Below are positions 5,499-47,024 of a stretch of 64,000 bases of DNA, piece by piece (position 1 is the first letter of the stretch; each line of letters opens with the position of its first letter). The stretch comes from Gonocerus acuteangulatus (taxonomy: Eukaryota > Arthropoda > Insecta > Hemiptera > Coreidae), in contig OX328123.1 of assembly GCA_946811695.1 (NCBI GenBank), positions 121,671,118 to 121,735,117 of the forward strand, written 5' to 3'. The translations under genes and the position numbers were made by a program. Below the pieces are notes generated by a model, which saw only the letters and a program-made list of their open reading frames with translations, made no database searches and had not been told where the DNA came from.

Positions 5499-5680
5499 GG
5501 GGTCTCCCGGGGTTTAATGGCTAGCGCCTTGGATTCATAAGCGGGAGATGGTGGGTTCGATTCCCAACCTCTGGCAGGAATTTTATCATCCCACGGCTCG
5601 CTGATAAAATTCCTCGCTACACCCTGGATGTCGGCGCAAATGACCTAGATGTAGATGCGCCGTAAAAAAAAAAAAAAAAA
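5499..5680 (+). mobile_element. tRNA-derived SINE (SINE1), copy a
   Basis: The tRNA-like head (5499-5570) has an A-box-like TGGCTAGCG and a perfect B box GGTTCGATTCC (5554-5564). It is followed by a body containing CCCTGGATGTCGGCGC and an A tail (5663-5680). GAGTGAATA occurs just before the head (5490-5498) and just after the tail (5683-5691), a likely target-site duplication. The head lacks a clean tRNA fold and runs into an A-tailed body, so this is a SINE and not a tRNA gene. Confidence 0.8.
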
Positions 5681-5723
5681 GTGAGTGAATAAATTTAAAT
5701 ATTTTTCTTGTTTTTCGTTTTTG

Positions 5724-5822
5724 TTTTTTTTTACGGCGCATCTACATCTAGGACATCAGCGCCGACATCCAGGGTGCAGCGAGGAATTTTGTTAACGAGC
5801 CTTGAGATGATTCCTGCCGCCG
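5724..5822 (-). mobile_element. SINE1 copy b, 3' half (split by the Transib-like element)
   Basis: This is the reverse-oriented body of SINE1, with the T run marking its A tail on the left. It stops exactly at the CGCCG duplication. The tRNA head of the same copy resumes at 6897. The uninterrupted copy near 46.8 kb reads straight across the junction. Confidence 0.85.
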
Positions 5823-6896
5823 CACAGTGTAAGGAAGTAATGGAGATTATGGACAAAAATCATTAACCACTAGTTATTTTCAAATAAACCTTTTTATTAA
5901 TTGAAATCAACTCAAAACAAGGTAAAAATAGTATAACAATGCATGCTATACGGCTATAAAAATATTAATTGTAATATTAATAGAAATAATATAGCAGGTA
6001 ATAATATTATTAATAACAATATTATAAAATATAATATAACTGTAACATATAATGTAGTAATAAACTCTTGTTTATGTCTGCCTCTAAGGAAGCAGAAGGG
6101 CCATCAGAACGAGAATATCATTTTTCTTGATAAAAATTTCTTATAAGTTGATATATAGTTTCAACCAGTATTTATGTAAGAGTTTTTTTTCTCTGCGGTG
6201 AACACGTTCCCACATTTTTTACATTTAATATAAGACTAAAGTGGCAGTCTTTCTAATATTGCTTAATATTTCTTTAGAAGCATCCTGCAGATCAAATAGA
6301 ATCATTTGTCCAAGGATTGATACCGTTTTCTTGGATTTATCCACATTTTTTCAAATTTGGAAGAAAAAATAAATTGATGGATCTAAAAATAAAAATCTTT
6401 GGAATCGGCAAATTTCGGCAAACTAAATTGCTGTCAGTAGATTATACTTGAGGTAAACTTTAAGCTCTAAAAAACTTGGGATGTTTGCAGATGAAGTTTT
6501 TTTGCTATGGTGTATCAAAATTTTGTACATAAGAAAAATGTCAAAAATTAATGAAGAATAATTCATGATAAATAACAAGGGAGTAATTACCCGTAATCAA
6601 TTATATCAGATAAAAAAGGAATAGTTTTGACGTAATTTCCTTCGGATGACTTAATAAAAACACTGTCCTATCTTCAACGAGAGAGGTTCAAACTAATTGT
6701 TGGTATAAAGCAGATTTTGAAGACTTTGCCTTGTTTATAATGCTGCTAAAGTGTTTGTTGATCAAAATAAAGCTAATATTTATTAGTTTTATACGATTTT
6801 AATTCCTTGAATAGTTTCTAAACTTAGCTAGAGGATTAAAAATTAAATATAAGAAATCAAAAATTCGGGTTTTTCTCCATTGGACGTTACACTGTG
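5823..6896. mobile_element. Non-autonomous Transib-like element with RSS-like ends
   Basis: The 1,074-bp element has CACAGTG at both ends in inverted orientation. It is flanked by the 5-bp G+C-rich duplication CGCCG (5818-5822 and 6897-6901) and sits inside SINE1. Transib family termini are CACWRTG-like with 5-bp G+C-rich duplications, which this matches. The first 23 bp or so of each end are imperfectly complementary and share TAA and AATGGAGA. At the left end ACAAAAATC follows the heptamer after 23 bp. At the right end AGAAAAACC follows after 13 bp. The interior is very A+T-rich and I find no transposase, so it would need one from elsewhere. Confidence 0.75.
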
Positions 6897-6970
6897 CGCC
6901 GGTGGGAATCGAACCAACCATCTCCCGCTTATGAATCTAAAGCGTTAGCCACTAGACCACGGGGAGACCC
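6897..6970 (-). mobile_element. SINE1 copy b, tRNA-like head
   Basis: On the minus strand this reads the A-box-like TGGTCTAGTGGC and a B box GGTTCGATTCC. Together with 5724-5822 it makes one SINE. It abuts a SINE2 fragment directly. Confidence 0.8.
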
Positions 6971-7030
6971 CACTAGGGAGATAGAGTGTTCAGTACTATG
7001 CTTCGGCCGCCTGATTTTTCCCTTTGCTAG
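6971..7030 (-). repeat. SINE2 body fragment
   Basis: ACTAGGGAGATAGAGTG through CGGCCGCCTGATTTTTCCC matches the body of the longer SINE2 copies at 13.3, 27.5, 42.1 and 46.1 kb. Confidence 0.7.
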
Positions 7031-31720: not shown

Positions 31721-34429
31721 TTACACAATTTCTTGCAATAAGTTGTCTCGTGGCCAATGGCGGCGGAGGCGGCGAGGAGGATTATCAGGAATAACATTGG
31801 AAGAAAGGGATCTGCCAAGAGGATTGGGGTGGGCTGGGAGTTTAGAGAAAAAGGTCAGGAAACGGGATTTGGCTAAATCATGGACAAAGGGTATATCAGT
31901 GTCTCGGTGGATGGTTAGGTTTGAAACGTAGAAAGGAGCGTTAAGGATTTTACGGAGGACTTTGGATTGAAAACGTTGGATAATGTTTATATTTGATGGC
32001 TTAGCTGATCCCCATAGTTCTATCCCGTATGTCCATATCGGTCTTATTATAGTCTTGTATATTGTCAGTTTGTTTTTTGTGTAAAGTTTCGATTTAGGTC
32101 CAATAAGTCGTCGGAGAAGTCCAAAGCGTTTGTTCAGTTCTTGTCTCTTGTGTTTTATGTGTGTTTTCCAGGTAAGTCGCTTGTCGAGGTGGAACCCTAA
32201 ATATCGAACCTCGTTGGATTGGGGTATTGGGATATTGTGGATTTTTACGGAAGGGCACTCAGCTCGTCGCAGGGTGATGGTTACATGTGTACATTTCTCT
32301 GGGTTCATTTGAATCCTCCATTTGTTGACCCATTTCTCGACGCCATTGAGGTAGGTTTGCAGTTTTTCAGATGCCAATTTAGGATCGGGAGAGGAAATAA
32401 GGAAGGCAGTGTCATCGGCAAATGTACACGTGACAATATCTGGGGTTGTTGGGATATCTGAAGTAAATATAGAATAAAGGAGAGGAGCTAGGATACTACC
32501 TTGGGGGACACCTGCTTTAATGGTTCGAGGAGTGGAAATTGAAGAGCCGTATTTAATGTGGAAGGTACGATTTTCAAGATATGATTTTAGGATCAGATAG
32601 AAATGGAAAGGAAGGAATGTTTTGAGTTTGTAAAGAAGTCCGGGATGCCACACTCGATCAAAGGCCTGAGCCACGTCAAGAAAGACACCGGAACACAAGC
32701 ACTTTTGCTCGAGTGTGGAGGAAATAGTGTCAACTACACGGAAGACTTGTTGGGTAGTGGAATGCTGGGTACGGAAGCCAAACTGGTGATCAGGAATTTT
32801 ATGGTTTGAGTTTACTATGGGTAGGAGTCTTCTATACAGGAGTTTTTCGAATACTTTTGAAATTATTGGGAGAAGGCTAATAGGACGATAGGAACTGGCA
32901 AGTGTTGGAGTTTTAAGGGGTTTGGGAATAAGGATTACTTCGGAATGTTTCCAGGATGTGGGAAATCGAGTAGTACGGAGGATGCTATTAAATATTAAGG
33001 TAAGGAACATCAGGGTTTTGTGTGGCAGGTGTCGGAGGATATTGGCAGTTATTAGATCGGGACCTGGAGATTTCTTACGAGGGAGATGGTGAATTGTATA
33101 TTTGACATCTGCAGGACTGATGGATTTAGGTGGTTCCGAAAGAGGAAGGGGTTCATCAAGAGAGTTCAGGATTTCAGTTGTGAGTGTGGGATTACCTTCA
33201 GGATTGGGAGTGAAAACGGATTGGAGATGGTCGGCAAATAATGTTGCTTTTTCCTCGTCACTTCGTGCCCAGGAACCATTCTCTTGGCGTAAAGGAGATG
33301 AGGTAGGTTGGAATTTTAAGATATGCTTTGTTGCTTGCCATAGGGAGTTGTCACTGGTGGTGAGGGAGGAAAGGTAAGTGTCGTAATTGTCAGTTCGATG
33401 GTTTTTAAGTTCGTCTTTTAGCCGTCTCGTTAGGTTGTTGAATAAGGTTTTATCGGAAGGGTATCGGGATCTCTGCCATTGGGCTCGTGCTCTGCGTTTT
33501 GCTGACAAGAGTTCAAGGATTCGGGGAGGGAGTTTTGAATGTTGAGGAGAGGGTACTGGTTTCCGTTGCTTGCTTGCAACTTTCATGCTGAACTGTATGG
33601 CCTGCGTAACTATTTCTGCAGCTCTGTCCACGTCCTGTTGTGTTTTCAGAGCTACTTTCAGATCAATAAAACAGTCTACTGTCGATCGAAACAATGGCCA
33701 GTCCACAGGTCCAGGTGTAAGAGTAGGTTTAGGAGGAAGGGGGATCGGAGAGGAACTAAGGGTGAGAAGGAGAGGAGAGTGGTCCGAGGAAAGGTCATCT
33801 AGAGTTTTCACCGAAGAGTAAATGCCTCCTAGGCCAGAAGAGACGAAGAAGTCAACAATATCGGGGACTCTGTTTAGGTCGGAAGGCCAGTAGGTAGGAT
33901 TAGGTTGGGAAAGAAAAAGGTAGTTTTCGGAGTGTATGACATCGTTTAGCACACGGCCTCTGGAGTTGGTAGTTCTGCTTCCCCATTGAATATGCTTCGC
34001 ATTGTAGTCTCCCCCTGCGACGAAGTGAGGGCCTAAGGAACGGAAGATGGTGAGAAAATCTGGATGATAAATTGTTTTATTAGGGGGACAATAGACAGAA
34101 GCAAAGATAATGGGATGAGGGTGCATTTTGACTGATACGGATGTAAGTTGGTATGATTCACTTGAGAGGGTCAAGTGAAGGTGGTGGGATAACGAGGATT
34201 TTATTAGAATAGCTGTTCCACCGTGTCCTGTCATGTCTGGGTGATCTGTTCTATATGTCCTGTATCCTGGTGTGGTATATGTGAGTTGTGGACGTAGGTG
34301 TGTCTCTGTTAATAGTACAATGTCAACTTGTTTGTCAGTTAGTAGAAGTTCGAGTTCATGTTTTCGGGATAGTAAGCCATTAGAATTCCAGAGGAGGATG
34401 GAGAGGGATTGACAGTTGGAGGGGATCAT
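31721..34429 (-). CDS. ORF2: AP-like endonuclease plus reverse transcriptase
   Basis: This 902-residue polyprotein nicks target DNA and copies the element RNA at the nick (target-primed reverse transcription). The endonuclease occupies roughly residues 10-225. Visible motifs are WNSNG (14-18), the catalytic Glu in TETHL (Glu42), GDYNAKH (140-146) and SDHSP (215-219). The reverse transcriptase lies at about 450-720: KSPGPD, YRPISLLP, FLDVAQAFD with Asp585, GVPQGSILAPLLY, and FADD with Asp672 and Asp673. A C-terminal Jockey-type tail (LTIYKTIIRPIWTYG) follows, with no zinc knuckle and no RNase H. There are no internal stops and the length fits Jockey-clade ORF2. The start ATG overlaps the ORF1 stop as ATGA, suggesting coupled termination-reinitiation. 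The plus-strand frames beneath it are shadows. Confidence 0.93.
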   Translation of the reverse strand: MIPSNCQSLSILLWNSNGLLSRKHELELLLTDKQVDIVLLTETHLRPQLTYTTPGYRTYRTDHPDMTGHGGTAILIKSSLSHHLHLTLSSESYQLTSVSVKMHPHPIIFASVYCPPNKTIYHPDFLTIFRSLGPHFVAGGDYNAKHIQWGSRTTNSRGRVLNDVIHSENYLFLSQPNPTYWPSDLNRVPDIVDFFVSSGLGGIYSSVKTLDDLSSDHSPLLLTLSSSPIPLPPKPTLTPGPVDWPLFRSTVDCFIDLKVALKTQQDVDRAAEIVTQAIQFSMKVASKQRKPVPSPQHSKLPPRILELLSAKRRARAQWQRSRYPSDKTLFNNLTRRLKDELKNHRTDNYDTYLSSLTTSDNSLWQATKHILKFQPTSSPLRQENGSWARSDEEKATLFADHLQSVFTPNPEGNPTLTTEILNSLDEPLPLSEPPKSISPADVKYTIHHLPRKKSPGPDLITANILRHLPHKTLMFLTLIFNSILRTTRFPTSWKHSEVILIPKPLKTPTLASSYRPISLLPIISKVFEKLLYRRLLPIVNSNHKIPDHQFGFRTQHSTTQQVFRVVDTISSTLEQKCLCSGVFLDVAQAFDRVWHPGLLYKLKTFLPFHFYLILKSYLENRTFHIKYGSSISTPRTIKAGVPQGSILAPLLYSIFTSDIPTTPDIVTCTFADDTAFLISSPDPKLASEKLQTYLNGVEKWVNKWRIQMNPEKCTHVTITLRRAECPSVKIHNIPIPQSNEVRYLGFHLDKRLTWKTHIKHKRQELNKRFGLLRRLIGPKSKLYTKNKLTIYKTIIRPIWTYGIELWGSAKPSNINIIQRFQSKVLRKILNAPFYVSNLTIHRDTDIPFVHDLAKSRFLTFFSKLPAHPNPLGRSLSSNVIPDNPPRRLRRHWPRDNLLQEIV

Positions 34430-44809: not shown

Positions 44810-45866
44810 CTGTTAACACGATAGCGGCCAGAGTTTTTGTTTTTTCGTCACGAAACTTGGTATATAGCATTCAATTAGCAAACGATTGAACGAGTTCGTT
44901 AACCACCAAAGTCGGTCCACCGGAAGGGGGGGGGGGTTACCCCGAACCCAAAACACTAATTTGACTATGTCAGCCGTAATATTTGTTATATTTCAACGAA
45001 ACTTGGTATTCGTAGTGGTAATATAGAGAGAAAAGTGAGATATAAAAATGAACTAAATCGGTTCATTAGAAGGGGGGGTTTACTCCGGACCCACAATACC
45101 AATTCGCCACTACCAGCCGTGATTTTTGGTATATTTCGATGAAACTCGGTATTCGTAGTGGTAATCCACAGGTAAATAACTGTTGTAAAAATAAACTAAA
45201 TCGGTTCATTAGGAGGGGGGGTTTACTCCGGACCCACAATACCAATTCGCCACTACCAGCCGTGATTTTTGGTATATTTCGACGAAACTCGGTATTCGTA
45301 GTGGTAATCTAAAGGTAAATATGTGTTGAAAAAATAAACTAAATCGGTTCATTAGAAGGGGGGGTTTACTCTTGACCCAAATTCTTAATATACTCATACC
45401 GGTCGTAATTTCTGCTGTATTGTAACGAAACGCGGTATACGTCGTGGGTAACTCATGAGAAAGAAGTGTTGTAAAAATGAGCTGAATTGGTCAATCGGAA
45501 AGCGGGGGTTTAATTTGTAATATATTTCAGTAGAAAAGCCCGTCAGACGTAGGTTCACAAAGCCGCCGCAAGGAGCGCTTTCTACCACTAGAGTGACTGT
45601 ATCCTGTTCCTGCGTTAGATCAAAATACGATAATATGAGGTTTTTTGTATTTATTACGTAGTGTAATAGGTACCATGTGTAAACATAACTCTGGAAGCAA
45701 ATTATTAATTGATCAGTTACTCATTACAAATTTAAAAGAGAACTATTCATGTTTTTATTTTATTTATGTAGGATATTTTAAGCAAATTGTTCTGGAAAGC
45801 AATCTACACTACCCAAATTCTGAGGAAAGTGCTTAGTTATGCAGCTCCTGCGTGACGGACTTTTTT
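44601..45866 (+). mobile_element. HINE-B copy 1, complete
   Basis: The 5' end TTAGCACTTTCCTC forms a hairpin (ACTTTCCT-CCGA-AGGAAAGT). Its inverted partner GAGGAAAGTGCTTAG lies at 45822-45836, just before a GCAG-CTC-CTGC hairpin and the 3' end GACGGACTTTTTT. This is the asymmetric inverted-repeat layout of Helentron-type elements. The interior has (TA)n (44726-44806) and three diverged repeats of about 150 bp, each with AACTAAATCGGTTCATTAG and a G run. No Rep/helicase is encoded, and the short minus frames are repeat artefacts. Confidence 0.8.
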
Positions 45867-46569: not shown

Positions 46570-47024
46570 TAGACGTATATAGGAAATAATTTCGGAGAGC
46601 GCTGGGAAAAGTTCGGAGGGGAGAGGCTGAGACCATTTCAGGGGCATGGAATACTAACAATTTAGAACTTGTTCTATTATTATTATCTAACTATTAGGAA
46701 TAGTTTTAGCCGCCTAAAACGCTTTCGACAAATCTGGACCATTAACGCCGACATCCAGGGTGCATCCGAGCCCTGTGATGAAATAATTCCTGTCGCCGGT
46801 GGGGATCGAACCCACCATCTCCCGCTTAAGAATCTAAGGCGCTAGCCCCTAGACCATGAAAGACCCCTTCTAAAACGCTATTACAACTAAAAAAATATAT
46901 TTTTTATGAACTAAGTAATCTCATTTCATTTATTTTTAAAGGTTTTATGACATTTTTACCGATCAAATCAAAATTTCGGGGGGAGGGGCACAGCCCCCTC
47001 AGTCCCCCCTTATATAAGCCCATT
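46570..47024. mobile_element. CATGGGCG-type MITE, copy 2, split by SINE1
   Basis: The ends are eroded (CGTATATAGG at the left, TATATAAGCCCAT at the right). The interior matches the reverse complement of the 16.2-kb copy (TGGAATACTAACAATTTAG, TTTTTTATGAACTAAGT). It is interrupted at 46724-46869 by SINE1. Confidence 0.7.
46724..46869 (-). mobile_element. SINE1 copy d
   Basis: The minus strand reads an A-box TGGTCTAGGGGC, a B box GGTTCGATCCC, and a body with ATGTCGGCGTTAATGG. The duplication CTAAAACGCT flanks it (46714-46723 and 46870-46879). The 16.3-kb MITE copy carries the empty site (ACTAAAACGTTATTAC). This intact copy also proves the junction split by the Transib-like element at 5.8-6.9 kb. 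Confidence 0.85.

Follow-up and report, generated by a model that had tools for sequence, protein, structure and literature searches.

Our data show that a 1,074-bp element in the window (the whole 64,000-nucleotide stretch of DNA analyzed here) belongs to a family of high copy number, with hundreds of copies in a genome of 1.1 billion bases. We consider it likely that the window copy was moved by a Transib (RAG1-type) transposase through heptamer-nonamer ends with spacers of 23 and 13 bp. As read from the DNA letters, the heptamers, the nonamers, a 10-bp difference in spacing between the ends and the 5-bp duplications are all present in this family.

The element, a non-autonomous Transib-like copy, occupies 5823..6896 (no strand assigned), and the majority consensus of 40 aligned rows is 1,084 bp long. 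It is flanked by the target-site duplication CGCCG on the left (5818..5822) and on the right (6897..6901), and is bounded by inverted CACAGTG heptamers at 5823..5829 (+ strand), where CACAGTG is also the majority sequence in 34 aligned rows, and at 6890..6896 (- strand). On the left, a 23-bp spacer (5830..5852, + strand) leads to the nonamer ACAAAAATC (5853..5861, + strand); on the right, a 13-bp spacer (6877..6889, - strand) leads to AGAAAAACC (6868..6876, - strand), which is one base off the perfect consensus nonamer of the right end. Each block matches the canonical nonamer at eight of nine positions. The preliminary description had reported these inverted heptamers, the CGCCG duplication, the 23- and 13-bp distances and one mismatch per nonamer, and all of them are borne out. 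Within the window, CACWRTGTAA without mismatch occurs at the element's two ends only, as does a longer pattern common to both, CACAGTGTAA-N{3,8}-AATGGAGA. Comparison of nine frames of the window copy with Pfam, and of one with PDB, revealed no coding remnants above the cut-offs.

Unequal bipartite ends across the family

To place the window copy within its family, we searched the genome (1.106 Gb, 135 contigs) with the element. With the best 40 of 1,555 candidates scored, we obtained 44 match rows, representing the window copy, 39 other copies (87-95% identity) and four smaller pieces of those. Alignment of the 39 copies with the window copy gave 40 rows; after removal of six rows from the left-end comparison and three from the right-end one, 34 and 37 remained. 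The majority left end is CACAGTG-TAACGAAGTAGTGGAGATTATGG-ACAAAAATC (34 rows), with a 23-bp spacer and a nonamer matching the canonical one at 8/9 positions; the majority right end is CACAGTG-TAACGTCCAATGG-ACAAAAACC (37 rows), with a 13-bp spacer and a fully canonical nonamer (9/9), both scored against the heptamer and nonamer as printed in the excerpts of PMC8289069 used here. The RSS-like signal is thus stronger in the family consensus than in the window copy. Common to both ends are CACAGTGTAACG and an inner 11-bp block, ATGGACAAAAA, separated by 4 or 14 bp, so that the left end is the same bipartite site as the right with its blocks 10 bp farther apart. The consensus therefore keeps unequal spacing, along with CACWRTG-type heptamers and CGNCG duplications. 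The two ends had been likened to a 23-RSS and a 12-RSS: the asymmetry and both nonamers hold in the consensus, at 23 and 13 bp and so within 1 bp of 23 and 12, but the short spacer measures 13 bp rather than the canonical 12, as seen for the window copy and for 46 of 100 genome matches listed.

Those matches come from a genome search for CACAGTG-N{1,31}-ACAAAAAYC, which gave 1,300 matches against 60 for the reversed control pattern. Among the 100 listed, the spacer was 13 bp in 46 and 23 bp in 46, with 1, 11, 12, 16, 20, 21, 22 and 30 bp once each. A second pattern, CACAGTGTAACG-N{1,18}-GGACAAAAA, gave 1,045 matches against 0 for its control, with spacers of 13 bp in 50, 23 bp in 49 and 16 bp in one of the 100 listed; for both patterns, the listed places are the first ones on contig C1. 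Because the patterns demand an intact or mostly intact nonamer, these counts speak to spacing and abundance, not to conservation. In wider collections, the shared end pattern was found in 34 stretches of genome contigs, about the level of chance (an estimated ~45 in 257 Gb), and in one stretch of viral contigs.

The preliminary description had cautioned that A-rich nonamers could arise by chance in A+T-rich DNA. We subjected the consensus ends to 20,000 dinucleotide shuffles with the heptamer kept, and found a nonamer of at least 8/9 at a spacer of 22-24 bp at a rate of 0.00125, a 9/9 nonamer at a spacer of 11-13 bp at a rate of 0.0001, and at least 8/9 at both ends in 0 of 20,000. Allowing any spacer from 0 to 40 bp raised the two single-end rates to 0.014 and 0.002. 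Since these rates are low, the caveat is answered for the family consensus.

Conservation of the nonamers among copies, which had been proposed as a check, was seen at one end. In the aligned rows, the left nonamer shows 4 changes among 306 cells, compared with 57 among 1,734 at the other positions of the first 60 (p = 0.07; 34 rows), and the right nonamer 11 in 333 against 67 in 1,887 (p = 1.0; 37 rows). Loci from a search with the right end only supplied 16 left ends, of which four repeated earlier places and 12 were added, giving 46 rows on which changes were tallied by hand. In this enlarged set, the left nonamer has 6 changes in 414 cells compared with 49 in 1,058 for the left spacer (p = 0.003); on the right, the nonamer (11/333) does not differ from its spacer (21/481; p = 0.47). 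The left nonamer is thus modestly conserved, varying less than its spacer, and the right one shows no such effect, so that the absence of conservation named beforehand as evidence against the RSS reading occurred in part, at the weakly conserved right block. The heptamers do not vary less among copies than the spacers, and by the same count the left heptamer (16/322) is not conserved. Because this heptamer is expected to be essential, the test has little power, and because the copies share ancestry, its cells are not independent.

The same genome contains other end sequences of this type. When a non-T was required after the heptamer, we found 75 matches, compared with 25 in the control. One further end sequence, CACAGTG-CATCGACCATGG-ACAAAAATC, has a 12-bp spacer and occurs with similar spacers in 13 places as judged by eye (G000:C22:14298511-14298538 and 12 others, with the nonamer ACAAAAAYC); around one copy, a search out to 2.2 kb revealed no partner end. 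There are also several unlike ends with 23-bp spacers, such as GGCAAAACATCTATTTTACGGCG and GTATTTTTAACTGATCTAGCTGG: unlike spacers of this length lie between CACAGTG and ACAAAAAYC at C9:6568224, C31:126675652, C31:126755320 and C18:16099861 of G000, and more such ends lie at C26:39040299, C22:18216295 and C5:45850204. A script filed 37 of the 75 matches as resembling the element's own family, including five of the thirteen 12-bp rows. The remaining 38 form 26 clusters, with a spacer of 23 bp in six and 12 bp in four where chance would give about 1.7 for each length (pooled P ~0.002, for lengths chosen post hoc).

These results bear on whether the nonamers matter at all. In a Transib relative that depends on the heptamer and the first dozen bases alone, the nonamers would be inherited passengers and the 23/13 arrangement would have no function. 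The copies are similar and probably young, the right nonamer lacks extra conservation, and Hztransib is symmetric with little or no nonamer similarity according to excerpts of PMC8289069, all of which fit such passengers. We nevertheless judge this account unlikely: the 11-bp block sits at different distances in the two ends and was reached in 0 of 2,000 shuffles, the nonamers match at 9/9 and 8/9 positions, and the other ends in the genome place the same block at 12 or 23 bp with the post hoc excess given above.

Superfamily assignment and a longer form

The family begins with CAC, has inverted CACWRTG-type heptamers and is flanked by 5-bp, GC-rich, CGNCG-like duplications, as expected of a Transib. 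A search of the 1.1-Gb genome with the Pfam profile PF12940, which could miss multi-exon or divergent enzymes, detected no RAG1-type core, and the profile had no match in 14 control genomes. A single sub-threshold genome match (20.9 bits) contains two stops, and only chance-level end matches lie within its 9.9-kb stretch; we read it as chance. Because no RAG1-type core was found, the family is Transib-like by its ends and target-site duplications rather than proven so by an enzyme. The earlier assignment to a non-autonomous Transib-like element thus stands for the ends and duplications, and its counterpart, a RAG1-type transposase in the genome, did not appear. Likewise, the proposed search for an autonomous Transib with the same ends returned none, either by the PF12940 profile or in five inspected stretches of 2.3-3.3 kb between distant ends. 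These candidates consist of parts of the longer and short forms with extra, partly nested insertions, and contain no recognized transposase of this family. One copy (L133 with L134, G000:C1:19226104-19228419) harbors a nested mariner-like transposase fragment as judged by eye.

Longer copies (such as L086, L093, L101, L124 and L128) carry about 300 bp of extra sequence at consensus position 240, and the window copy likely derived from this longer form by loss of the ~300 bp. The extra stretch and its neighbor form one minus-strand frame, unbroken in some copies, that reads through a zinc-finger-like CKKCGNVF, then FLRGRHKKEFTALCERSKKRRV, then an acidic tail. A GRP motif is found in two diverged copies (GRPKKEF and GRPKKEL, in L143 and L133), and GRH in others with this part intact. 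We searched the genome with the frame of L127 and obtained 152 matches (best 150 of 1,631 candidates scored), many of them stop-free in the ~139-aa frame, which stays open in many copies (L124 and L127 among them) though it is no recognized transposase. Compared with Pfam up to E = 1, the frame matched nothing; PDB offered nothing convincing, and the protein database gave no match either. We take its GRP-like motif to resemble the GRP motif found in the nonamer-binding domain of RAG1, and regard this likeness as a lead only. In excerpts of PMC9435367, Transibs are described as keeping an equivalent of the nonamer-binding domain, with GRP among the conserved positions. The frame is possibly the DNA-binding N-terminus of the lost transposase. 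In L115 (positions 1-1107), 27-bp units repeat in tandem by the dozen; they derive from the frame's acidic tail and make up a minisatellite that arose inside the element.

The missing core and the retained frame without a known match could instead point to a different cut-and-paste superfamily that has CAC ends and 5-bp duplications, in which the RSS likeness would be convergent. We regard this as very unlikely, as a CAC heptamer with a nonamer and a GC-biased 5-bp target-site duplication is the set of features that excerpts of PMC8355894 and PMC8289069 give for Transib and RAG-like elements.

A palindromic landing site in a tRNA-like SINE

The window copy splits a tRNA-like SINE at 5732..6975 (- strand; extents estimated by eye). 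We identified this SINE by its poly(A/T) tail, its GGTTCGATTCC box and similar copies at 5499-5790 and 46732-46856; the GGTTCGATTCC box is presumably a B-box, and the window SINE copy had no tRNA match and no Rfam match. Next to the element, at 5499-5822, two inverted copies of the same SINE are joined at their poly(A/T) tails and could form a long hairpin.

We assembled an insertion set from 70 rows (the 40 aligned rows and 30 loci of the right-end search), restricting it to copies with both ends and no more than one mismatch between their 5-bp flanks. We then removed nine rows whose flanks were identical to others, though some of these rows represent distinct places within SINEs of nearly the same sequence, and 36 non-redundant insertions were left. 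The target-site duplication is exact in 22 of these, and in a minority it is not CGNCG. One site in the tRNA-like SINE holds 27 of the 36 insertions (28 with L112, which we assigned there by eye); L054, counted among the 27, has SINE sequence on its left flank only. By comparison, the window has 75 CGNCG sites outside the element, a single one of which we identified by eye as the SINE site; this yields a binomial probability of 2e-43, a rough figure given that the background comes from one window. The nine remaining insertions, L112 among them, reveal a symmetric preference extending to ~9 bp from the center, TTCC-N-AC-CGNCG-GT-N-GGAA; its symmetry follows from counting both strands, whereas its bases do not. 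The sequence at the SINE site, TTCCCACCGGCGGCAGGAA, agrees with this palindrome. The simplest reading of the hot spot is a sequence preference for the extended palindrome, not tethering to tRNA genes. In the open-licence literature searched, we found no description of a SINE landing site for a Transib, nor of an extended palindromic target that directs most insertions to one.

That 27 of 36 insertions share one SINE site could also mean that they are not independent, and that a single SINE-element composite was multiplied by retroposition or duplication. Two loci about 12 kb apart, L067 and L068 (G000:C6:84974855 and 84963122), have identical flanks in keeping with this idea; they also share the same broken right end and are probably a segmental duplication. 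We consider such multiplication extremely improbable as an explanation of the set. Relative to the SINE, 14 insertions point one way and 13 the other, and the duplications vary (CGCCG, CGGCG, CGTCG, CTATG, CATCG, CTCTT, CAGCT, CAACC and AGTCG), which together contradict it as the main route; insertions outside the SINE show the same palindrome as well.

Proposed mechanism and relation to RAG-type signals

We propose that the transposase would grip each end at CACAGTG and an A-rich nonamer, which are separated by 23 bp at the left end and by 13 bp at the right, and would bring together a long-spacer end and a short-spacer one, in the way that RAG joins a 23-RSS to a 12-RSS in a pair. We infer the moving enzyme and a functional need for the asymmetry, the pairing of unlike ends being suggested by the same bipartite site lying about one helical turn farther on one side. 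Both ends would then be cut, and the element would be pasted by 5-bp staggered cuts into a palindrome close to TTCCNAC-CGNCG-GTNGGAA. A close match to this target lies where the tRNA-like part of the SINE ends, which would make the SINE the main landing site. More speculatively, and on balance doubtfully, the genome may contain, even with no RAG1 core detected, a working 12/23-type system, in which several families with complete signals (12/13 and 23) would be served by a RAG1-like enzyme that pairs unlike ends only, without RAG2, and long forms would spread an isolated nonamer-binding protein as a regulator of pairing.

Compared with vertebrate 12-RSS and 23-RSS signals, the heptamer and the right nonamer are identical, the left nonamer matches at 8/9 positions and the long spacer is likewise 23 bp; the short spacer differs at 13 bp, and the signals here are ends of a mobile element with no antigen-receptor context. 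Among Transibs, the names N1-N3 suggest non-autonomous members. Asymmetric spacers in an arthropod element, expected beforehand to be unusual, have already been published for insect Transibs (excerpts of PMC8355894 and PMC9435367): ends of 12/23 ± 1 bp are listed from earlier work for Transib5 of D. melanogaster and for Transib2, N1, N2 and N3 of An. gambiae (PMC8355894), and Subgroup I Transibs are all asymmetric-ended with both kinds in Subgroup II (PMC9435367); most Transib families are said to be symmetric-ended (excerpts of PMC8289069). Because 12/23-asymmetric Transibs are in print, the present family adds a new and well-populated example to an arrangement already described. It shares with the fly and mosquito elements a heptamer and nonamer at both ends and one long and one short spacer; going by the excerpted description of those elements, it is set apart by its 13/23 spacing, its fully canonical right consensus end, its more than 1,000 matching ends and its SINE hot spot.

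More distant systems share parts of this design, as far as excerpts of their descriptions go. AanRAGL, like the Subgroup I and II Transibs, has asymmetric bipartite ends, and it makes a 5-bp target-site duplication, but its blocks are 4/13 bp apart and of other sequence (PMC9435367). Amphioxus ProtoRAG, in which asymmetric pairing is favored, also has two conserved blocks at two spacer lengths and a GC-biased 5-bp duplication; it differs in its 27/31-bp spacers, in ends unlike the canonical RSS and in its RAG1L and RAG2L genes (PMC8289069). On the target side, hopper and transib2 of D. melanogaster make 5-bp duplications in a palindromic target, GC-rich in the case of hopper, with a 7-bp motif, CCANTGG (PMC3276498), as opposed to ~19 bp and one SINE hot spot here. 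Dada DNA transposons likewise cluster at a single site within repeats of small-RNA or small-RNA-like type, but with 6-7-bp duplications, RNA genes as targets and other ends (PMC3706591), compared with 5-bp duplications in a SINE site here.

These findings address the origin of the 12/23 rule. The family supplies more than 1,000 natural, near-perfect RSS ends, in which an ordinary transposon combines spacers of 13 and 23 bp, and the same genome has other end sequences with 12 and with 23 bp. This makes the need for unlike ends, and the use of such ends by RAG1/RAG2, testable. The palindromic SINE landing site is a second point, separate from the RSS-like ends: a GC-rich target preference can make a repeat a home for a DNA transposon, and we infer that a SINE is a relatively harmless one.

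Elsewhere in the window, a 29-bp stretch around CGACG is present in three identical copies, at 45280, 58645 and 58790, and is probably part of a longer repeat. The window also contains an uninterrupted 902-aa frame at 31721-34429 (- strand) that by eye encodes the endonuclease and reverse transcriptase of a non-LTR retrotransposon.
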